Program-made: the position numbers and the translations under genes
Part shown: positions 3,757 to 22,628 of the stretch, piece by piece
Layout of the letters: each line of letters opens with the position of its first letter
Position numbering within the stretch: the first letter of the stretch is position 1
The notes under the pieces: generated by a model
The model's input: only the letters and a program-made list of their open reading frames with translations
Told to the model about the DNA's origin: nothing
Databases searched by the model: none
Virus record (IMG/VR): IMGVR_UViG_3300032296_001408
Span: 1-23,638 of that record
Length of the DNA: 23,638 bases
Direction: 5' to 3' (one strand)
Source of the DNA: a virus

Positions 3757-4200
3757 ATGGAAATCAGAATACGAGAGACTGGCGCGGTAGTTACAAGTAG
3801 CGAGTTCCGCGCAATGCATCCAAACACCGGCTTTCCTCAAGTATTGGTCGAGGAAATTTTAGATGCGTTTGGTGCTGATCCTGTTTTTAACGGGCCACAA
3901 GCACAGCCTACTCGCTACCAAGTTGCTTACCGTGATGGCGTAGAGCAGGTTAATGGCAAGTGGTACACCAAGTTCGCCGTAGCCGACATGGGCGATGACG
4001 CCAAAGCCGCTTTAGATGAGCAGCAAGCAACATCAATAAGAAACGAAAGAAATAAAAAACTTTCGGAATCAGACTGGTCGCAGGTAGAAGATTCGCCTGT
4101 GGATAAGGCTGCATGGGCTACCTACCGTCAAGCGCTGCGTGATCTGCCATCACAATCCGGCTTCCCTTGGGATGTTACTTGGCCTACCCAGCCGGAGTAA
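3757..4200 (+). CDS. Phage tail assembly chaperone-like protein, copy 2
   Basis: 147 residues, paralogous to the 160-aa protein at 138-620. The C-terminal parts align closely: RNERNKKLSESDWSQ, AWATYRQALRDLP, GFPWDVTWPTQPE. The N-terminus (MEIRIRETGAVVTSSEFRAM) differs from copy 1 and resembles the N-terminal part common in phage genes of this type, followed by VNGKWYTKFAV in place of copy 1's NGVWTLGWSI. GAGG at 3748-3751 lies five bases before the ATG and overlaps the stop of the 852-aa fiber gene. The different N-terminal halves with a shared C-terminal half suggest each copy serves a different client, perhaps the fiber just before it; this is inference. Confidence 0.82.
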   Translation: MEIRIRETGAVVTSSEFRAMHPNTGFPQVLVEEILDAFGADPVFNGPQAQPTRYQVAYRDGVEQVNGKWYTKFAVADMGDDAKAALDEQQATSIRNERNKKLSESDWSQVEDSPVDKAAWATYRQALRDLPSQSGFPWDVTWPTQPE

Positions 4201-10917: not shown

Positions 10918-12216
10918 ATGAGCTATTCAAGACGACAATTAGAAGCTTTAGGTGAACCGTTTGGTTCTTGCGCCACTCGTGTAAAGCCGGGCGGCTATGG
11001 GCGCATCTATGGCGTAGGCAACGAACCAGAACCTGAAGGCAGCAGACCATCCGGCGAAGACTATTACTACCAGACCGGTACTATGGGAAGTGGGCCATAC
11101 GGTGGGCAACCAGCTGGGTTTATGGTCGCTAACCCTGAATATAAGGGCGCAGAGTACGTGCCGTATACAGGTGAAGGAGTTCCTTCTGGCGACGACTATT
11201 ACTATAACCGGGGTTCTTTAGGCGCTCCCGCCGGTTACATGGTTGCAAACCCCGAGTACCAAGCAGATGTACCGGCGTACGTTCCTTATGTAGCGCCCAC
11301 CACAACAGCTACGTCTACAACTACTGGCGGTGGCGGTACAACTACAAATACTGGCGGTGGCGGTACAACTACTGGTGGAAATGTCACAGCGCAAACAACA
11401 CAGTTATTACAAGATAGGCTGGGAACAACGCCGACCCAAGATCAAGTTAATTATTGGAGCGGTATATTTGGATTAGATAACCAAATTACACCTGATGAAG
11501 TCACTCGACTAGATTCGGCTATTGGCAATACTGGTAGAACTCCCGGCCCGTCTACGCTTGCAAATACTATTTTAGGTACTCAACAGCAACAACAGCAACA
11601 GCAACAGCAACAACAGCAACAGCAACAACAGCAACAGCAAGTTAATCAGGGTGGGGTAGCCCCACCGCCGGGGTTCTTAGGCACTCGACCTTCGTTTACT
11701 GGTGTACGTAATCCATTCTATGAAGGATCGGATACACGTTCTGATTTAGTGAACATGGCATATCAACGTCTTTTAAATAGACCACCAGACGCCGCAGGGC
11801 TTGCCAACTATAGCCAAGAAATGATGCGTGGTTTAACTGGACAAGGGTTGGTTTCTGCACTGGCAAACTCACCAGAGTTCCAAAGGACTCAAGATTTCCA
11901 ACGTGCGTATACTTCGACATTCCGTCCCGGTTATCAAGAGTTTGGGCCAAGTGGTCAGTACAACCAGCCAATCTATTTAAGTAACTACACAGACTATGCA
12001 AGGGCACCCGGATTTACGCAGCCTACGTACAACACGGAGATGATGACTCCGCAAGACGTGGGGTATGGGTTTGGGTCATTTAATCCATTTGCATATGGCA
12101 GCACTAATCCATTTGCGGGTGACACTGCTGCACCAACAAGCGAAGGTAGCCCGGCGGCTGCAAGTGGGGGCAGAATTAAAGACGATGACGGTATTACTGC
12201 GCTATTGAAACGATGA
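10918..12216 (+). CDS. Virion-type protein with poly-Gln tract and DUF4214-like domain
   Basis: 432 residues. Residues 1-31 (MSYSRRQLEALGEPFG, VKPGGYGRIYG) are shared with the 464-aa protein two genes on. Residues 44-88 and 89-124 are two repeats (PSG[ED]DYYY ... PAG[FY]MVANPEY ... YVPY). A Thr/Gly linker (127-155) precedes a stretch reading LLQDRLGTTPTQDQVNYWSG, then a run of 20 Gln at 222-241. Residues about 275-322 resemble DUF4214 (MAYQRLLNRPPDAAGLANYS ... LVSALANSPEFQ), a domain often found in secreted or surface proteins with sugar-related context. The C-terminus is ASGGRIKDDDGITALLKR. AAGGA six bases before ATG 10918 overlaps the upstream stop. The stop forms ATGA with the GNAT-like gene. 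Virion role is inferred from neighbours. Confidence 0.6.
   Translation: MSYSRRQLEALGEPFGSCATRVKPGGYGRIYGVGNEPEPEGSRPSGEDYYYQTGTMGSGPYGGQPAGFMVANPEYKGAEYVPYTGEGVPSGDDYYYNRGSLGAPAGYMVANPEYQADVPAYVPYVAPTTTATSTTTGGGGTTTNTGGGGTTTGGNVTAQTTQLLQDRLGTTPTQDQVNYWSGIFGLDNQITPDEVTRLDSAIGNTGRTPGPSTLANTILGTQQQQQQQQQQQQQQQQQQQQVNQGGVAPPPGFLGTRPSFTGVRNPFYEGSDTRSDLVNMAYQRLLNRPPDAAGLANYSQEMMRGLTGQGLVSALANSPEFQRTQDFQRAYTSTFRPGYQEFGPSGQYNQPIYLSNYTDYARAPGFTQPTYNTEMMTPQDVGYGFGSFNPFAYGSTNPFAGDTAAPTSEGSPAAASGGRIKDDDGITALLKR
11581..11640 (+). repeat. CAA/CAG trinucleotide run encoding 20 Gln
   Basis: Sixty bases of mixed CAA and CAG codons. CAACAG units recur irregularly, which is consistent with expansion and contraction by slippage, although the mixed codons partly interrupt a perfect repeat. 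It separates two predicted globular parts of the protein. Confidence 0.95.
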
Positions 12217-14035: not shown

Positions 14036-15723
14036 GCGTAACCGGATTAGGCCGTATTGCTATGGCTGAAAAAATGTCTGTGTCGCAGCTTCAAGAAGCG
14101 CTGGAAAATAAGACGCTTCCTGCTTACATCGCGGCACCGCTGCTTGAAGAAAAGCTGGACATGCAAGAACGCAAGCGCAACGCCATGATCATGCAACAGC
14201 AAGCACAACAACAGCAGCGGGCTCCAATCGTGGATCGTCTTATGCAACGTGCGGCTATGGAGCCCGGCATTGAAACACTACCTACTAACTTAGCACCTGC
14301 ACAGCGTATGGCTGGCGGCGGTATCGTTGCGTTTGAGGAAGGTGGTGAAGTTCCGCGTTATGCGAAGGGCGATTTAATCGATAAAGAATTTAAGACAACC
14401 GACCCGGCAAAAATTAACCAAGCCAAACTAGACATCCTCCGTGCAGAGCTAGCGGAGGAGCAACGGAATCTAGGGTTAGAAACCGACCCAACTAAAAAGG
14501 CAAGAATTCAAGCCAACATAACGGCGATTAATAGAGAGATCGCGACTGCTAGTAAATCTCCTTCACCTGAAACTAGTATGGGTGGGTTTGGTAAGGTAAC
14601 TAAAATTCCTAGTAACGATCCGGGTATAGCGGCGCAACGCACTGCTATGTCACTACCTGCAATGCCTCAAGGACAGGCAGCGTCGACTATGACTCCAGAA
14701 CAAATGCTAGCTAATGCAAGGGGCATTACGGATTTGGTTTACCCCACAACTAGCGCACCGACGGAAACTACGCCTGAAAAATCACTTGAGCAGGTTGACA
14801 AGTTTTACACTATGGCAGGGGTTGACCGCGACATATTTAGAAAACAGGGTAAGGGCATTGAGGAAGAACGTGCTGGTATAGCGAAGGACAAAGAAGAAGC
14901 CAAGACATTCCGTATCTTAGAGGCCGCTGCTGGAGTTTTAAGTGGTACTTCTCCGTTTGCGTCAGTCAATATTGGTAAGGGCGCGTCCCCTGCTATCCAA
15001 GGATTGGCGTCGGACATGAAGGAATTCCAGAAGAACGAACGTGCGCTGCGTGCGGCTGAGCGTGACCTAGCTATGAGCGAACAGAAGTTCAATCTCACCC
15101 GTGCGTCAGACGCGCAGGCTCAGATGCTAAGAGACCGAGATCGTGTTGATAAATACCAAGATAAGAGAGCAGGACTCACTAGTGATTTGATTAAATCATC
15201 CAATACTGTTGAGGGTCAAATTAGAGTTGCTGAAACTTATGGCAGAACCTCTAAGGAACTTGAACTCCTGCGTCAAAACGCACCGCCAGAACTTGTTAAG
15301 ATGGCAGATAGACTTAAGAAAGACATGCCGGGTAAATCTGAACTAGAGCGACTGGAGGTTGCGGCTGACATTATGTTCCCGGGGAAAGGGCTGGCAGCAA
15401 TTATTGGAGCCGAATCTAAAGCTGCACAGGCTGTTGAAGAAGCATTCAACACTAACCTACTCACAAATAAGAGACTTAAAAATTTAAATGAAAAAGCTCA
15501 AGCCGGTGATCCAGATGCGAAAAGAGAAATAAAAGAATTCAAGGACAATTTACTTAAAGACTATTACAGTCGTATGCCAACACTATCTAGCCGTATGGGG
15601 GAAAACCCACAGGTGGGGGGCGTAACGCTGTCGTCTGAAGATCAGCAAGCTTTAGCTTGGGCTAACGCAAACCCAAATGACCCACGTTCCGCTCAGATTA
15701 AGCAACGTCTAGGAGTACGGTAA
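14032..15723 (+). CDS. Coiled-coil internal virion-type protein
   Basis: 563 residues from ATG 14032, which has AAGGTG five bases upstream and overlaps the previous stop by four bases; an inner ATG at 14062 is possible. The N-terminus (MSVSQLQEALENKTLPAYIA) is followed by a Gln-rich helix and MAGGGIVAFEEGGEVPRYAKGD (about 94-115), a GG motif shared in kind with neighbouring genes. Residues about 130-180 and 280-390 are charged helices (KNERALRAAERDLAMSEQKF). A hydrophobic patch around 300-325 (ILEAAAGVLSGTSPFASVNI) is short. The C-terminal ALAWANANPNDPRSAQIKQR resembles an ending common in phage virion proteins. Located directly before the giant protein, it corresponds in position to T7 gp15. 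Function inferred. Confidence 0.6.
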   Translation: MSVTGLGRIAMAEKMSVSQLQEALENKTLPAYIAAPLLEEKLDMQERKRNAMIMQQQAQQQQRAPIVDRLMQRAAMEPGIETLPTNLAPAQRMAGGGIVAFEEGGEVPRYAKGDLIDKEFKTTDPAKINQAKLDILRAELAEEQRNLGLETDPTKKARIQANITAINREIATASKSPSPETSMGGFGKVTKIPSNDPGIAAQRTAMSLPAMPQGQAASTMTPEQMLANARGITDLVYPTTSAPTETTPEKSLEQVDKFYTMAGVDRDIFRKQGKGIEEERAGIAKDKEEAKTFRILEAAAGVLSGTSPFASVNIGKGASPAIQGLASDMKEFQKNERALRAAERDLAMSEQKFNLTRASDAQAQMLRDRDRVDKYQDKRAGLTSDLIKSSNTVEGQIRVAETYGRTSKELELLRQNAPPELVKMADRLKKDMPGKSELERLEVAADIMFPGKGLAAIIGAESKAAQAVEEAFNTNLLTNKRLKNLNEKAQAGDPDAKREIKEFKDNLLKDYYSRMPTLSSRMGENPQVGGVTLSSEDQQALAWANANPNDPRSAQIKQRLGVR

Positions 15724-18700
15724 TGCCGTTTGATCCAGATGCGTACCTAAAGAAAAAACCGGAGCAAACTACTAACCCGTTCAAAGCGGAAGGGTTTGAT
15801 CCTGATGCGTATCTGAAACAAACACCAAAACCGTTTGATCCCGACGCCTACCTAGGGGCAAAACCTGCGGCACCTACACAACCATCTGCACCGCCAGAAG
15901 AATCCGGCTTTTTACGCCAAGCTGCTGATATTCCTATTGGGATAACCAAAGGGATGGTTACTGGCGTACGTATGATTGCAGATGCGTTCGGTGCGGGCAG
16001 TGATGCCTCGAAACTAATCAAAACTTACGAAGATCAAATCGGCGGTCTTCTATCTGCACAAGCAAAGAACGACCAGAAAGAAATTAGCCGCATCCTCAAG
16101 GATGCCCAAGACAAAGGCGTTCTCGATCAATTAGCCGCTGCCGGTAAAGCATTTGCAACTGCCCCAATTGATCTCACGGTTCAAGCTCTCGGCACTTCCG
16201 CCCCGGCTCTCATTACTGGTTTAGCCACTACGATTGGCGGTGCGCCGACTGCTGTGGCACTAGGTACTTCCGCTCTCATGGGTTCTGTCATGGGTGCAGG
16301 TGAAGCGAAGGGTAGTATCTACGAAGCGACCAAAGAAGAACTGCTGAATATAAAAGTACCAAAAGACAAAGCCGAGCAGATAGCTATAGCTGCACAAGAG
16401 TATGGCGGTAAAAACTTAGATCAGATTCTGTTAGCTGCTGGACTTGGTGCGGCTACATCGGCAACCGGCTTCGAAGCCAGTGCTATTAAAGGGATGACTA
16501 CGCGCATCTTAAGTAAGGCCGCTGTTAAAGAAACCGCCGGCGCTGCCGCTAAAGAAGTAGCTGAAAAAGGTGTGGCACGTAGTATAGCTACTGGAATAGG
16601 TAAAGAATCTATTCCTGAGTTACTGCAAGGATCGCAGATACAACTTGCCGAGAACCTTGCTTTACAACGGGAAGGCTTTGACGTTCCCACCATGCGTGGA
16701 GTTGTTTCCCAAGGCGCGTTGGAGGCTTTATCTGGTGCCCCATTAGGCGCGTATGCTGGTTATAGAGAACGCGGTGCTCCTACTGTTGGTGAAGATACCC
16801 GTGAGGGCAAAGCACTTAGTGAGCTGGATAGGCTAGCAGCGGAAGAAGAAAAAGTCGCTCGCTCTTTTGTTGAGCGTAAGTTATATGCTGAATTGGGTCG
16901 TCCGCCACTTGAGGAAGAAATACTGGAGGGCATCAATGATTATCTGGACGAGCAGAACGCAGGTAGAGGAACTAAGCCCGGAGCAGGTATCGCTGGCGTT
17001 TCTGATATTAGTGAGCCCGAAGCCACCGGAGTTCCAGATACCACAGTCGCTACAACACCTGAATCGGAAGGACTGGATACTACTGGAGGGGCTACTACAG
17101 TCGCTGGAGCTGGAACTGGAGCACAGCCGGGTGCATTAGAAGAGGCCGCTGCGCCTACAGATTTAACAGCACTTGAGCAAGAAGCACGTACCCGGTTCGA
17201 TGCGGTAAAGGGTATTCAAGAGCAGCAGCAAGCGCTTTTAACTAAAGCTGGTCGGATACCTGCTAAGAATTCCCCTGCGCGGAAAAAGTACGATGCTTTG
17301 GCTGAACAACAGGCAGAAGCTAAATCGGCTTGGGATGAAGCAGATAGAAAGCTACGTGAGGCTAAAGCGGGGTTTACTTCCGATGTAAGGGCTATCGCCG
17401 ACACTTACGCAGACGAGCTGTTTGCAGCTAACCCCAACTACGATTCCGCTGCTTATGATGCCGCCGAGACTAAATTATTTAACGACCTCAAGGCCCAAGG
17501 CATAACTGATAAAGCCGCAAGAAGCGCTGCGGCTGAAGCATTTAGCAACCGCCTAGTCCAACTGGATGAAAACAAAGGTAAGCCACCAGCACCTGCTTCG
17601 GCGAAGCCGACTTTTGTGTTGCCGGAGGAATATGCTCATGGCACCGACTACTTAACCGCACAAAACATTATTCGCGGTGGAAGGCTTATTCCTGATGCGG
17701 GTAAGCGGATGTATTCCTACTCGCAGTTTGGTAGGAAAGCCGTATATCTAACGGCGCGAGATGGTTGGTGGCTGGACGCAGATAAAGCTGCTGAAGGTCG
17801 TGCGGCTGTCTATGACGCTTCGGTACCGTTTAAGTTAGACCCCAAAGCAAAAATACGTGAGGTAAACACCCCAGCCGAACTGGATGCTATTGCCCGCGAA
17901 ATTGGTGAGCCTGATGGCGCCACCATGATGCGCAAGTTAAGTGTAGAAAATCTTGACTATGAGCAAGAAGCCCGCAAAGTTAAGGGTACGTCGTTTGAAA
18001 ATTTTGTTAAGCAAGAAGTTAATCGTCGTCGTGAGCAATTGAAAAAATTTGATGCGCCCGATGCTGATACTGTAACTGATATAGATAGTTGGGTAGCACA
18101 GCAAGAAAAAGAATATGAAGATCGCCCAGAATTTATCCGTAGCAAAGAGGACGTACTTAACACGCTGCGGGAGCGGTACGACTTCTTACAAAACTATGAA
18201 AACGAATACAAAGACGCGGATGAAGTAACGCAGAAACTTCTTGACGCTGGTATCGACGGTATCTACGTTGGCCCTGACTTTGGAGCGGTTAACCCCGAAG
18301 AATACAAAGCGTTTGATGATCTATGGAATAGAACGCAAGATGCTATGCCGGGGGCGTCGCCGGAGGAAGTATTTGCTGCCGCCAAAGAAGAATACAGAAA
18401 AATAAATCCTACATATTTTGACCGCGCATCTGACGTAGTTGCATCGGATCAACTCGCCCTTTTCCGCCCAGAGCTTGCAGTAGTAGACCGTGCACGGTTG
18501 GCTGCGACTAGACCCGCGCCATCACAAAAACCAGCTCTGTCAGTCGAAGAGTTTAAGAAGAAGCCCGGCGAGACTGAAGATGATTACGTAGACCGCGTAT
18601 CAAGAAGCACTGGCTCGGAAATGGCTCCCAACATCGTCGAGATGTTGCGTAATAACGACTTGAACGGCGCGTTACGTGAAGTGGCAAACATCCTTCCCGG

Positions 18701-21700
18701 GTTCAATGGCACATTAGCCAATAGGTTGGCTCAATTAAACCTACCGAGTGGAGTACGTATTGGGGATCAGCGTAACCTTACTCGGCGTAGCATAGACCAT
18801 ACATCTGGTAAACAGCAGATACGATTGTTTGGGTACTTACGAACTGCCGCACCTGATTTTTTTAATAAGTATTTTAATCAATACGACAGAGAAGAGAACT
18901 TAGAGACCGTATATAAGGGGCTGACTGAGCTACCTAATTTTGTGTCCGATACAAAGCTAGGCCCGGTGCGTACCGAATACGATACGGTACTCCAATCGTT
19001 TGAAGACAACATGCTGGGACTGTCGGCGCTAGGTGCGTATTACCCAGTATTTGACGAGATAAACCTTAACGATAAATCTCGTGCGTATGGCACCGGTATG
19101 CGTCGGGACTCGGGGCTATCCTACCGTACGTTCTTGCATGAGACTGTTCACGCCGCCACCGAACTACTGCTACTCACCCCGCGAGATCAAAGAACCGCAG
19201 AACAGAACGCTGCGGTTGACGAGTTAGAGCGCCTCTACGAGTACGCGATTGGCAAGATTAGTGGTAGGCGCTATGGGTTTACAAACCTATCGGAATTTAT
19301 TGCCGAGATCATGACCAACCGTAGCTTTCAGAATGAACTGAAAGCTATCCCGTATCCACCTACTAGAAGCAATGTCTTTACTCGTTTTGTTCAGGCGGTA
19401 TTGAAGTTAGTCGGCTTGGACAACGTGGCTGGTCGTGCAATGGTAGAGGCCGAAAGACTATTCAACATAGAGCGCCCATACCAAGTTCTTTCTGCTGGCC
19501 CCCGGTTTACACAAGCCCCCAAGAAACGGAGGGTGCGTGGGCCTATCTCTACGCCGGATACATATCGTACAGCGGAAAGCCAACAGAATGCGTTGAAGCA
19601 AACTATCAAAGATGCCTACGAAGGGCGTATGCCGTGGGCGGATGCCGTAAAAATTATTGGTCCTAGCATATGGGATTCTGGTAACACGATACTACGTAAG
19701 ACAGCGCTGCCGGTAATGAACCTGACGCAGCTTGAAGATTTGACCCGTACGAAGTTCACGCAGATCACCGGTGCATTGAAGATCATCCGTGACATGGTGG
19801 CTTCCCGCGCTAAGAAGATGAATACCGCATCGGAAATCATGCGGGACTGGACTAAGGCGCAGAAAAAGAACTTTGCACAGTCGCAGCTAATGGGGCGCAT
19901 TATGATGGAGGCAACAATCCGTGGAATCGACCCGGATACAGCCCCCGCCGGTGCGCTTAATAAACCGCTTCAAGATGCTTGGAATACTTTAGACAACGAC
20001 TTTAAGATCATCTACCGTCGTGTCCGTGACTTCTACGCCAACTCCGTCAATGAGATGGTAAAGGAGATGGAGCGCAGGGCATCGGCTAATCCAGACCCTG
20101 TTGCGCGTGCCAAAGCCTTGAAAAAAATAAAAGAGCAATTTGGCCCGGATAAACTAATCAAGCCATACTTCCCGTTACGCCGTTTTGGGCAATATTTCTA
20201 TCAAGTCGGTGAGAAAAACTTTAAAGAGTTTTATGAGTTTGAAGACCCATTCACTCGTGACGCTGCCATGCGTAAGCGGATTAAAGATTTGTCCGCAGGC
20301 AATGAACAACAACGCAAATTGGCTGCGTCAATCCAAAAGGGCAACGGTATATCCGAGCTTTATGGGAAGAACATAAGTACGACACAGGCGCTTAAAGACG
20401 TAGAAGAATTAGTTGACAACATCTCTGCGACGGATGTTGCCGACTTGAAAGACCAATTAAAGGACAGCCTGAACCAGCTTATCTACATTCTGCTACCGCA
20501 GCAGAGCGTGCGGAAGATGTTCATCAACCGTAAATCTATTCAGGGCGCTAGCGCCGACATGCTACGCGTGTTTGCTACCACGGCTGTACACAGTGCTTAC
20601 CAGCAGTCTCGGTTTATGTACTCTGAGAAGTTCTTGCAGAACCTGAATAATGCTAGAGATGAAATAATTAATGCCCAAAAAATGGGGATGTTGAGCATTG
20701 ACGATGCCGCAATGTATAAAGATTTTATACTTGAGGTCGAGCAGCGGGTGCCAACAATCATGAGCAACGAGGACACCAGCATGACCGCACAGGTGGCTGG
20801 CAAGGCTTCTGAACTCACGTTTTACTACATGCTCTCGGCACCGTTTACGGCGATGCTTAACACTATCGGTGCGGTGCAGTTGGCTATGCCCTATATCGGC
20901 GGATCATATGGGTACGCCCGTGCGAATGCTTTGTTAGTCAAAAACATGGGGCGGTATCTTGCCACGTCGCCTACTCGCACGTTCTCCCCATTAACAAAAC
21001 GTGACTTTGCGCAAGTCAACTTCCCTTCGATTGCGGAAGGCCGCAAGCTGCCACCGTTGCTACAAAAAGCTGCTGACAGGTTCATTGATGATGGTGTAAT
21101 CGACATCTCGCTAACCAACGACATCTTTGAGTTAGGCGAGCGCCCATCAGCTTTGTATACCGGCACATCAGCAACAATCAAAAAGATTATGTCTGGGTTG
21201 TTCCACCAATCTGAACGGATGAACCGTGAGATTGTTTTACTGACAACCTTTGAGCTTGCCTACGATAAATTCTTGAATGACTACCAGCGTCAGCCGGGTA
21301 TGGAAGGTTTGCGTGGAGTCTACTTGCGTGACGCACGGGGCGATAAGATAAAGAACACCCCAGACCAAGCGTTCGAACTTGCTATTGAAGAAGCCACGCG
21401 GGTTACTTCTACTTCGCTGGGTGATTATTCACGTCAGACAAAGGGTCGGATATTTGCCAACCCAATAATGAATCTGCTGTTGAAGTTCAAGCAGTATCCG
21501 ATTTTGGCGATGTATTCAATAATGCGTAACTTCCACGTCGGTATAGTTGCTCCATTCAAGAAAGCCGAGATCGATCAGTATCGCGCCCTGCTGGAACAGG
21601 AACTGAAGAACGACCCCAACAAAGATAAAGTTATTGCCCAACGCCTGCAAGAAGTAGAAGCGCAGCGCAAGGCGTTAGAGAAGGAAGGGCGTCGTCGTTT

Positions 21701-22628
21701 AGCCGGTATCCTCGGGGTTACTACAATACTTGGTGGGGTAGCTGCATCTCCGTTTTTCTCGTTGGTTGTCGGCAACCTAGTCAAGATGTTTGCAGATGAC
21801 GATGATGACGAATACTTTGATTGGGAAAACTGGTTCTACAACTACATGGAAGGCGAGTTTGGCGGCTATCTCGGTGGCATGCTTGCCAATGCTGGTATAG
21901 AACCAAAAACCGCAGAAAAGGCTGGGCGTAAAACTGCTGAAGCTGTTTCTCGTGGTTTACCTGCTGCTATGGGTGCGGCTGTAGCCGACCGTGTCAGCCT
22001 TGATCCTAAAGCGCTGCTGTGGCGCGATGGTCGGTATTCGCCTGATGCGCGGGAGAACTTCATCGAGTCTTTGATCGCCAACGCCGGTCCGGTTGTTGGA
22101 CTTGCACTTAACTTTGTGGATGCCTACCAACTTGCCAAAGAAGGGCAGTATGCTCGTGCGGTAGAGAAAGCGGTACCTGCAATTATTGCTAAACCAGCCT
22201 CGGCGGTACGCATGGCTGAAGAAGGCGCTACCACTAAGAAAGGCGATGTGCTGATAGATGACTTTACAGTAACCGAACTAGCCATGCAGTCGATTGGTTT
22301 GCAGCCTGAACGCCTCGCGCAGAAACAAAAAGCCGCTATCTCCATAAAGCAGAAAGAACAAAAGATTCTGGATGCGCGTGAAGCTATTATGGACAGGCTG
22401 TGGATGGAGCGGGATAACCCTGATGGCTATGAAGCCGCGATGGAAAGGGCGCTTGAATTTAACAGCAAGCGCAAAGACCCGAAGATGCTCATTACGCCTA
22501 AGAAAATTAGAGAGTCGTTTAAAAAACGGGCGCAACTCAAAGCCGAGGCCGAAACTCTAGGTGCCAAGTACGATAAGCGCCTACGTAGTGAACTGATGGA
22601 TATGGGTGAGTTTGCGGACGATGAATAA
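15723..22628 (+). CDS. 2301-aa polyvalent internal virion / ejection protein
   Basis: ATG 15723 shares one base with the preceding stop (TAATG), with AGGAG seven bases before it. Residues 3-9, 25-31 and 38-44 are three FDPDAYL motifs. Residues 142-192 and 233-250 are Ala/Gly-rich hydrophobic helices. Residues about 634-865 include HGT (H639), VYLT (Y675) and PEEYKAF (E859/E860), compatible with an H-Y-E ADP-ribosyltransferase-like fold. Residues about 1050-1215 hold HETVH (1139-1143) and SEFIAE (E1191/E1195), a zinc-peptidase pattern. The last 900 residues are helical, with KFKQYP near 1921, a membrane-like segment at about 1993-2020, and DDDDDE at 2025-2030, as in large polyvalent phage proteins (LPD38-like). 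Place and size suggest a T7 gp16-like protein sent into the host with the DNA. No lytic transglycosylase motif was seen. Confidence 0.65.
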   Translation: MPFDPDAYLKKKPEQTTNPFKAEGFDPDAYLKQTPKPFDPDAYLGAKPAAPTQPSAPPEESGFLRQAADIPIGITKGMVTGVRMIADAFGAGSDASKLIKTYEDQIGGLLSAQAKNDQKEISRILKDAQDKGVLDQLAAAGKAFATAPIDLTVQALGTSAPALITGLATTIGGAPTAVALGTSALMGSVMGAGEAKGSIYEATKEELLNIKVPKDKAEQIAIAAQEYGGKNLDQILLAAGLGAATSATGFEASAIKGMTTRILSKAAVKETAGAAAKEVAEKGVARSIATGIGKESIPELLQGSQIQLAENLALQREGFDVPTMRGVVSQGALEALSGAPLGAYAGYRERGAPTVGEDTREGKALSELDRLAAEEEKVARSFVERKLYAELGRPPLEEEILEGINDYLDEQNAGRGTKPGAGIAGVSDISEPEATGVPDTTVATTPESEGLDTTGGATTVAGAGTGAQPGALEEAAAPTDLTALEQEARTRFDAVKGIQEQQQALLTKAGRIPAKNSPARKKYDALAEQQAEAKSAWDEADRKLREAKAGFTSDVRAIADTYADELFAANPNYDSAAYDAAETKLFNDLKAQGITDKAARSAAAEAFSNRLVQLDENKGKPPAPASAKPTFVLPEEYAHGTDYLTAQNIIRGGRLIPDAGKRMYSYSQFGRKAVYLTARDGWWLDADKAAEGRAAVYDASVPFKLDPKAKIREVNTPAELDAIAREIGEPDGATMMRKLSVENLDYEQEARKVKGTSFENFVKQEVNRRREQLKKFDAPDADTVTDIDSWVAQQEKEYEDRPEFIRSKEDVLNTLRERYDFLQNYENEYKDADEVTQKLLDAGIDGIYVGPDFGAVNPEEYKAFDDLWNRTQDAMPGASPEEVFAAAKEEYRKINPTYFDRASDVVASDQLALFRPELAVVDRARLAATRPAPSQKPALSVEEFKKKPGETEDDYVDRVSRSTGSEMAPNIVEMLRNNDLNGALREVANILPGFNGTLANRLAQLNLPSGVRIGDQRNLTRRSIDHTSGKQQIRLFGYLRTAAPDFFNKYFNQYDREENLETVYKGLTELPNFVSDTKLGPVRTEYDTVLQSFEDNMLGLSALGAYYPVFDEINLNDKSRAYGTGMRRDSGLSYRTFLHETVHAATELLLLTPRDQRTAEQNAAVDELERLYEYAIGKISGRRYGFTNLSEFIAEIMTNRSFQNELKAIPYPPTRSNVFTRFVQAVLKLVGLDNVAGRAMVEAERLFNIERPYQVLSAGPRFTQAPKKRRVRGPISTPDTYRTAESQQNALKQTIKDAYEGRMPWADAVKIIGPSIWDSGNTILRKTALPVMNLTQLEDLTRTKFTQITGALKIIRDMVASRAKKMNTASEIMRDWTKAQKKNFAQSQLMGRIMMEATIRGIDPDTAPAGALNKPLQDAWNTLDNDFKIIYRRVRDFYANSVNEMVKEMERRASANPDPVARAKALKKIKEQFGPDKLIKPYFPLRRFGQYFYQVGEKNFKEFYEFEDPFTRDAAMRKRIKDLSAGNEQQRKLAASIQKGNGISELYGKNISTTQALKDVEELVDNISATDVADLKDQLKDSLNQLIYILLPQQSVRKMFINRKSIQGASADMLRVFATTAVHSAYQQSRFMYSEKFLQNLNNARDEIINAQKMGMLSIDDAAMYKDFILEVEQRVPTIMSNEDTSMTAQVAGKASELTFYYMLSAPFTAMLNTIGAVQLAMPYIGGSYGYARANALLVKNMGRYLATSPTRTFSPLTKRDFAQVNFPSIAEGRKLPPLLQKAADRFIDDGVIDISLTNDIFELGERPSALYTGTSATIKKIMSGLFHQSERMNREIVLLTTFELAYDKFLNDYQRQPGMEGLRGVYLRDARGDKIKNTPDQAFELAIEEATRVTSTSLGDYSRQTKGRIFANPIMNLLLKFKQYPILAMYSIMRNFHVGIVAPFKKAEIDQYRALLEQELKNDPNKDKVIAQRLQEVEAQRKALEKEGRRRLAGILGVTTILGGVAASPFFSLVVGNLVKMFADDDDDEYFDWENWFYNYMEGEFGGYLGGMLANAGIEPKTAEKAGRKTAEAVSRGLPAAMGAAVADRVSLDPKALLWRDGRYSPDARENFIESLIANAGPVVGLALNFVDAYQLAKEGQYARAVEKAVPAIIAKPASAVRMAEEGATTKKGDVLIDDFTVTELAMQSIGLQPERLAQKQKAAISIKQKEQKILDAREAIMDRLWMERDNPDGYEAAMERALEFNSKRKDPKMLITPKKIRESFKKRAQLKAEAETLGAKYDKRLRSELMDMGEFADDE
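17622..18317 (+). other. Candidate ADP-ribosyltransferase-like region of the 2301-aa protein
   Basis: Residues about 634-865. The first block EEYAHGTDYLTAQNIIRGGR fits the H-containing strand and helix of H-Y-E type transferases, and AVYLT 35 residues on fits the Y strand. After a long helical insertion (about 740-835) comes GIDGIYVG and PEEYKAF, where E859 or E860 could be the third catalytic residue. The long insertion is unusual and weakens the case; an RNA 2'-phosphotransferase-like or degenerate fold is also possible. Confidence 0.38.
18870..19374 (+). other. Zinc metallopeptidase-like region of the 2301-aa protein
   Basis: Residues about 1050-1217. HETVH at 1139-1143 is a full HExxH motif preceded by TFL and followed by AATELL, as in helical active sites of zincins. 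NLSEFIAEIM about 50 residues later gives E1191 or E1195 as a likely third zinc ligand. The region before it (YYPVFDEINL, SYRTFLHE) fits the edge strands. Known relatives occur as parts of large phage polyvalent proteins; substrate unknown. Confidence 0.5.

Follow-up and report, generated by a model that had tools for sequence, protein, structure and literature searches.

A giant polyvalent protein with an HExxH motif

The window (the whole 23,638-nucleotide stretch of viral DNA that we analysed) encodes on its plus strand a 2301-aa protein that its sequence matches identify as polyvalent and PLxRFG-type (Table 1), the PHROG search giving a DarB-like family match in the C-terminal half. A PLxRFG-type protein has been detected in a virion by mass spectrometry (JC1 gp69; PMC9144972). 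Since the 2301-aa protein is homologous to the PhiM1 tetrameric ejection protein and to the N4 virion RNA polymerase (vRNAP), it is probably packaged in the head and ejected with the DNA, as judged from its homologues (PMC11440229, PMC12633501, PMC9144972).

Table 1. Features of the 2301-aa protein, in window coordinates
Feature	Position	Strand	Basis
2301-aa polyvalent / PLxRFG-type protein	15723..22628	+	ORF, NCBIfam NF032893, Pfam LPD39, PHROG DarB-like
Three FDPDAYL repeats, aa 3-9, 25-31 and 38-44, N-terminus	15729..15854	+	sequence
ART-like stretch, aa 636-950 (HGTDYL...VYLTA...GIDGIYVG)	17628..18572	+	by eye only
Predicted zincin-like metallopeptidase domain, ~aa 1033-1251	18819..19475	+	alignments A1-A4, AF2 models, structure matches, profile match
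HETVH, aa 1139-1143, two predicted zinc ligands and general-base Glu	19137..19151	+	sequence, 47-domain alignment
E1191, predicted third zinc ligand	19293..19295	+	invariant in 47/47 aligned domains
Low-confidence linker after peptidase, aa 1249-1290 (GPRFTQAPKKRRVRGPISTP)	19467..19592	+	conserved in three closest relatives
LPD39 domain, aa 1324-1456	19692..20090	+	Pfam PF18858, E 5.1e-13, above cut-off
PLxRFG domain, aa 1481-1849, PLRRFG at aa 1484	20163..21269	+	NCBIfam NF032893, E 6.7e-86

The N-terminal FDPDAYL repeats are a possible packaging signal. Other short repeats occupy the N-termini of two relatives, L053 and L054 (NPFDxFD, NYLEEAKKFGG); these may serve packaging, as in P1 DarB. 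The ADP-ribosyltransferase-like (ART-like) stretch returned no profile, PDB or phage match; its HGTDYL includes H639, one of the protein's seven histidines. Elsewhere in the window, a tail-region protein (10918-12216) contains a long poly-glutamine tract, and two proteins (138-620 and 3757-4200) closely resemble each other at the C-terminus (ALRDIPTQAGFPWEVTWP / ALRDLPSQSGFPWDVTWP), the former matching a tail assembly chaperone family.

The first-pass annotation had pointed to an HExxH metallopeptidase-like site in this protein, with a complete set of possible zinc ligands contributed by HETVH and a downstream SEFIAE. We found that the motif is real and beyond chance: in a protein with 7 His and 0 Cys the expected HExxH count is 0.0016, HExxH arose in 0.17% of 20,000 shuffles, and HExxH followed 40-70 residues later by EFxxE arose in none (0/20,000). 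SEFIAE lies in frame, with E1191 48 residues beyond the second His and E1195 at 19305-19307. Among 47 distinct homologous domains E1191 was always kept, and this is the independent figure because the rows were anchored on HExxH; E1195 was kept in 31 and replaced by W, Y, G or T in the other 16. The sole invariant columns of alignment A1 (H91, E92, H95 and E143) correspond to H1139, E1140, H1143 and E1191. The alignments therefore predict E1191, the first Glu of SEFIAE, and not E1195 as the third ligand, so that the proposed ligand set stands through the former residue and not the latter.

Homologous domains and the predicted fold

A search with aa 1051-1260 matched five viral contigs and, weakly, phages of Achromobacter, Limnohabitans, Pseudomonas, Xanthomonas and Acinetobacter as well as crAss-like phages, and HExxH with a downstream EF or EL motif was present in every match that was checked and in the further contig loci from follow-up scans. 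The homologous domain is found in phiKMV gp37 (HEAVH at 423, then EF or EL), the PhiM1 tetrameric ejection protein (gp48), crAss-like phages and N4-type vRNAPs, among them N4 gp50 (HELVH at 2228, then an EF motif). Eight more phages with N4-type vRNAPs, at identities down to ~24%, all carry HExxH, and the first zincin copy keeps it in 11/11 of the N4-type vRNAPs compared. Three relatives (L052-L054) were fetched with the C-terminal half alone (aa 1294-2259; 74-77% identical there) and all retain HExxH and EF(V/L)AE; the loss of HExxH in close homologues, which had been named as a refutation, was thus not seen in relatives chosen independently of the motif. Scans seeded with Paidla (L010) and a scan of genome contigs gave no further matches, and a scan seeded with L004 returned L004 itself and nothing else. 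The zincin domain of the Paidla ejection protein (L010:4471-9048) also lies under an endolysin-type label. An unannotated ORF of crAss-like phage cr10_1 (L013) has two HExxH copies, at aa 568 and 809 (241 residues apart), and in L029, L032 and L033 an ART-like domain appears to be inserted in the peptidase between the first helix and the first strand, with an ART-PolyVal match in L033.

The region was searched with profiles for zincin families, as the first-pass annotation had proposed. Pfam named no zincin family in the region (a single chance OST-HTH match overlapped the domain), and its MPTase-PolyVal entry (PF18818) did not match the window domain and matched 1/14 homologues at E 0.047. 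Solved ejection proteins were matched (9sfn_G, E 1e-20; 8vb2_A from PhiM1, 6e-14; 23sg_S, 8e-9), as was, remotely, anthrax lethal factor (E 0.0004-0.004). The window domain also matched the virion RNA polymerase family phrog_2206 (E 6.4e-09; profile-profile probability against the vRNAP group 98.9%), and profile-profile probabilities for the peptidase domain between phage groups were 97.6-99.7%. Our literature search found no paper in which HExxH and 'internal virion protein' occur together.

Two AF2 models (mean pLDDT 64 and 76) place HExxH on one helix and E1191 on another, with pLDDT of about 83-95 there; in the first, three strands are flanked on either side by helices, and the second, of higher mean confidence, has two of these strands only. 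Aligned with VIA, the first resembled the PhiM1 tetrameric ejection protein (Z 9.3, rmsd 3.6, 147 aligned), the N4 vRNAP (Z 8.0, rmsd 4.0, 176 aligned), anthrax lethal factor (Z 7.6, rmsd 4.8, 149 aligned) and PPEP-2 (Z 6.8, rmsd 4.5, 151 aligned), followed by more zincins, these Z-scores being moderate and the comparison covering the zincin families listed by Foldseek. The second model aligned to PhiM1 (Z 9.0, rmsd 6.2, 117 aligned) and N4 (Z 8.5, rmsd 3.1, 101 aligned), the two models falling on two different N4 segments. Foldseek alone gave no match in the PDB at E <0.001 and seven among viral models at that threshold, including phi14:2 and phiKMV-like core proteins. The histidines are not predicted apart or buried in a helical bundle, an outcome that had been named as counting against the site; in the models, HExxH and E1191 each occupy a confidently predicted helix within a zincin fold.

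From sequence and models, aa ~1033-1251 are predicted to constitute a catalytically competent zinc metallopeptidase domain of the polyvalent-protein MPTase type, its fold and family being nearly certain. A motif picked out by eye has become a well supported predicted enzyme domain, by which an environmental phage is linked to the ejection proteins of N4, phiKMV, PhiM1 and crAss-like phages. That the domain is an iron/alpha-ketoglutarate HExxH oxygenase, an alternative setting of the N4 C1 motif according to PMC12633501, is the most improbable reading we considered, the alphaKG-HExxH domain 8s5f aligning at Z 3.7 against 7.6 for the zincin peptidase.

The second model had aligned to residues 2430-2581 of N4 gp50 (L015), just after C1. 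In 11 schitoviruses (including L055-L062) this stretch resembles a zincin copy from which all ligands have been lost (hhalign probability between first and second copy, 79%; score with a general zincin profile, 31.4 against ≤15.9 for 40 column shuffles). The second copy sits in the C2 region, for which the structure paper reports no structural homologue, and a tandem pseudo-peptidase in N4-type vRNAPs is a fair reading. If it is real, ligands disappear from a copy that can do without them, and their retention in the first copy speaks for catalysis there. This argues against the domain being a spacer of the ejectosome, a zincin fold without catalysis, as does the invariance of both histidines and both glutamates of the site at ~25% identity; although in PhiM1 the domain forms part of the complex present before infection and the papers cited here report no activity for any member, we regard a purely structural role as improbable.

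A predicted peptidase at the junction of variable and constant parts

When the 2301-aa protein was compared with 11 relatives, the N-terminal part matched in none (0/11 at 1e-5) and the peptidase and C-terminal parts matched in all (11/11). Identity to the three closest relatives is 16-32% over aa 601-1000 and climbs to 63-85% beyond aa 1300; these relatives carry another HExxH motif in the N-terminal part, at about the position of the window's ART-like stretch. Across phage groups the peptidase was the only clearly shared domain in profile-profile comparison, which found no homology between the C-terminal parts. With a variable N-terminal part, a constant C-terminal part and the peptidase alone common to the groups, the peptidase is, on this sequence evidence, fixed at the border between exchangeable N-terminal cargo and a constant LPD39/PLxRFG C-terminal part.

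This junction position favours self-cleavage after ejection. From the sequence, the conservation of the ligands, the predicted fold and the place of the domain in a modular protein we infer a target, an activity and a timing, as follows. Zinc would be held by H1139, H1143 and E1191, with E1140 activating water; the protein would enter the head in one piece, pass down the tail and fold again inside the host, where the peptidase would sever the chain it belongs to close to the junction and so release the cargo domains from the C-terminal part. A candidate stretch for the cut is the linker at aa 1249-1290, whose residues 1249-1268 have pLDDT mostly <50 in the second model. For the MPTase class, Iyer et al. 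proposed autoprocessing, from domain architectures, or host-directed cleavage (PMC5512222). Counting against self-cleavage, the N4 vRNAP is packaged unprocessed (PMC5512222), the recombinant protein showed no degradation (PMC12633501), and the PhiM1 domain is visible in the virion before infection; any self-cleavage must therefore follow ejection. We give self-cleavage after ejection an even chance, and rate it no less likely than cleavage of a host or envelope protein.

The main rival is a host-directed effector, in which an active zincin would, soon after infection begins, cut a host protein (an envelope protein, a defence factor or a transcription factor). The stability of the N4 protein against self-cleavage fits such a role, as do the closest solved non-phage enzymes, which cut other proteins, and the sharing of this domain alone among groups with unrelated C-terminal parts; yet in the groups examined the domain stays at the junction, and an effector at work in unrelated hosts, from Bacteroidetes to Proteobacteria, would require a shared target or re-targeting. 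We hold a host target to be possible but doubtful. Somewhat more doubtful is that self-cleavage extends to one common post-ejection processing peptidase for the unrelated phiKMV/PhiM1, N4-like, crAss-like and PLxRFG phages. Were it so, a shared peptidase would split each giant protein at the junction and free its cargo. The C-terminal domain of N4 inhibits the polymerase, so that cleavage there would, speculatively, have a purpose in relieving this inhibition.

The first-pass annotation had also considered peptidoglycan peptides as the substrate, with the wall opened during ejection, having seen no lytic transglycosylase motif. Pfam likewise matches the giant protein to neither a transglycosylase nor a lysozyme domain, and databases call phiKMV gp37 an 'endolysin domain' (GenBank; L016:7567-11580). 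That label, however, coincides with the zincin region: the PhiM1 paper describes residues 268-528 as endolysin/exotransglycosidase-like, mentioning neither HExxH nor a peptidase, and the window-domain profile sets the zincin of PhiM1 gp48 at 371-516, which suggests that the endolysin labels on PhiM1- and phiKMV-type ejection proteins are misannotations. The fold neighbours (the lethal factor catalytic domain and PPEP-2) cut linear polypeptides, and the PhiM1 paper assigns a lysozyme-like domain to a separate ejection protein. The peptidoglycan role accordingly fares poorly and is, in our estimate, very unlikely.

Relation to known systems

The domain is of a kind described before in injected phage proteins, the N4 vRNAP among them, and the window protein adds one further member. 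The zincin-like MPTase of polyvalent proteins was published with 12 clades (Iyer et al. 2017; PMC5512222). As in that class, the window domain has an HExxH helix, a Glu helix and, with three strands in one model and two in the other, a small stranded core, and the phage protein around it is very large and multidomain, with domains of the LPD kind (LPD39, PLxRFG); the difference is that Pfam's MPTase-PolyVal model misses the window protein. Iyer et al. placed N4 C1 in the wider MPTase group (PMC5512222), and membership of the window domain in that group follows from its homology to N4 C1, the PF18818 entry itself being unmatched.

DarB-like / PLxRFG proteins share the constant C-terminal PLxRFG part and have an HExxH 375-545 aa before PLxRFG in 5/6, but these HExxH domains are missed by the window-domain profile and probably belong to another MPTase clade. 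The anthrax lethal factor catalytic domain (M34) and PPEP-2 have the zincin fold with HExxH and a distant Glu (Z 7.6 and 6.8); their biology differs and their sequence similarity is only remote. PhiM1 gp48 and phiKMV gp37 contain the same domain, with HExxH and an EF or EL motif, but are shorter, have a C-terminal part without detectable homology to that of the window protein, and are annotated as endolysin rather than peptidase. N4 or phiKMV would offer direct test systems for the target and timing of the conserved injected peptidase. N4 gp50 differs from the window protein in having an RNA polymerase and a C-terminal part without detectable homology, while its C1 (aa 2124-2375) resembles the window domain in its HExxH (HELVH, 2228), in a downstream motif that reads NEF in N4, in fold (Z 8.0) and in the large C-terminal part that lies beyond it.
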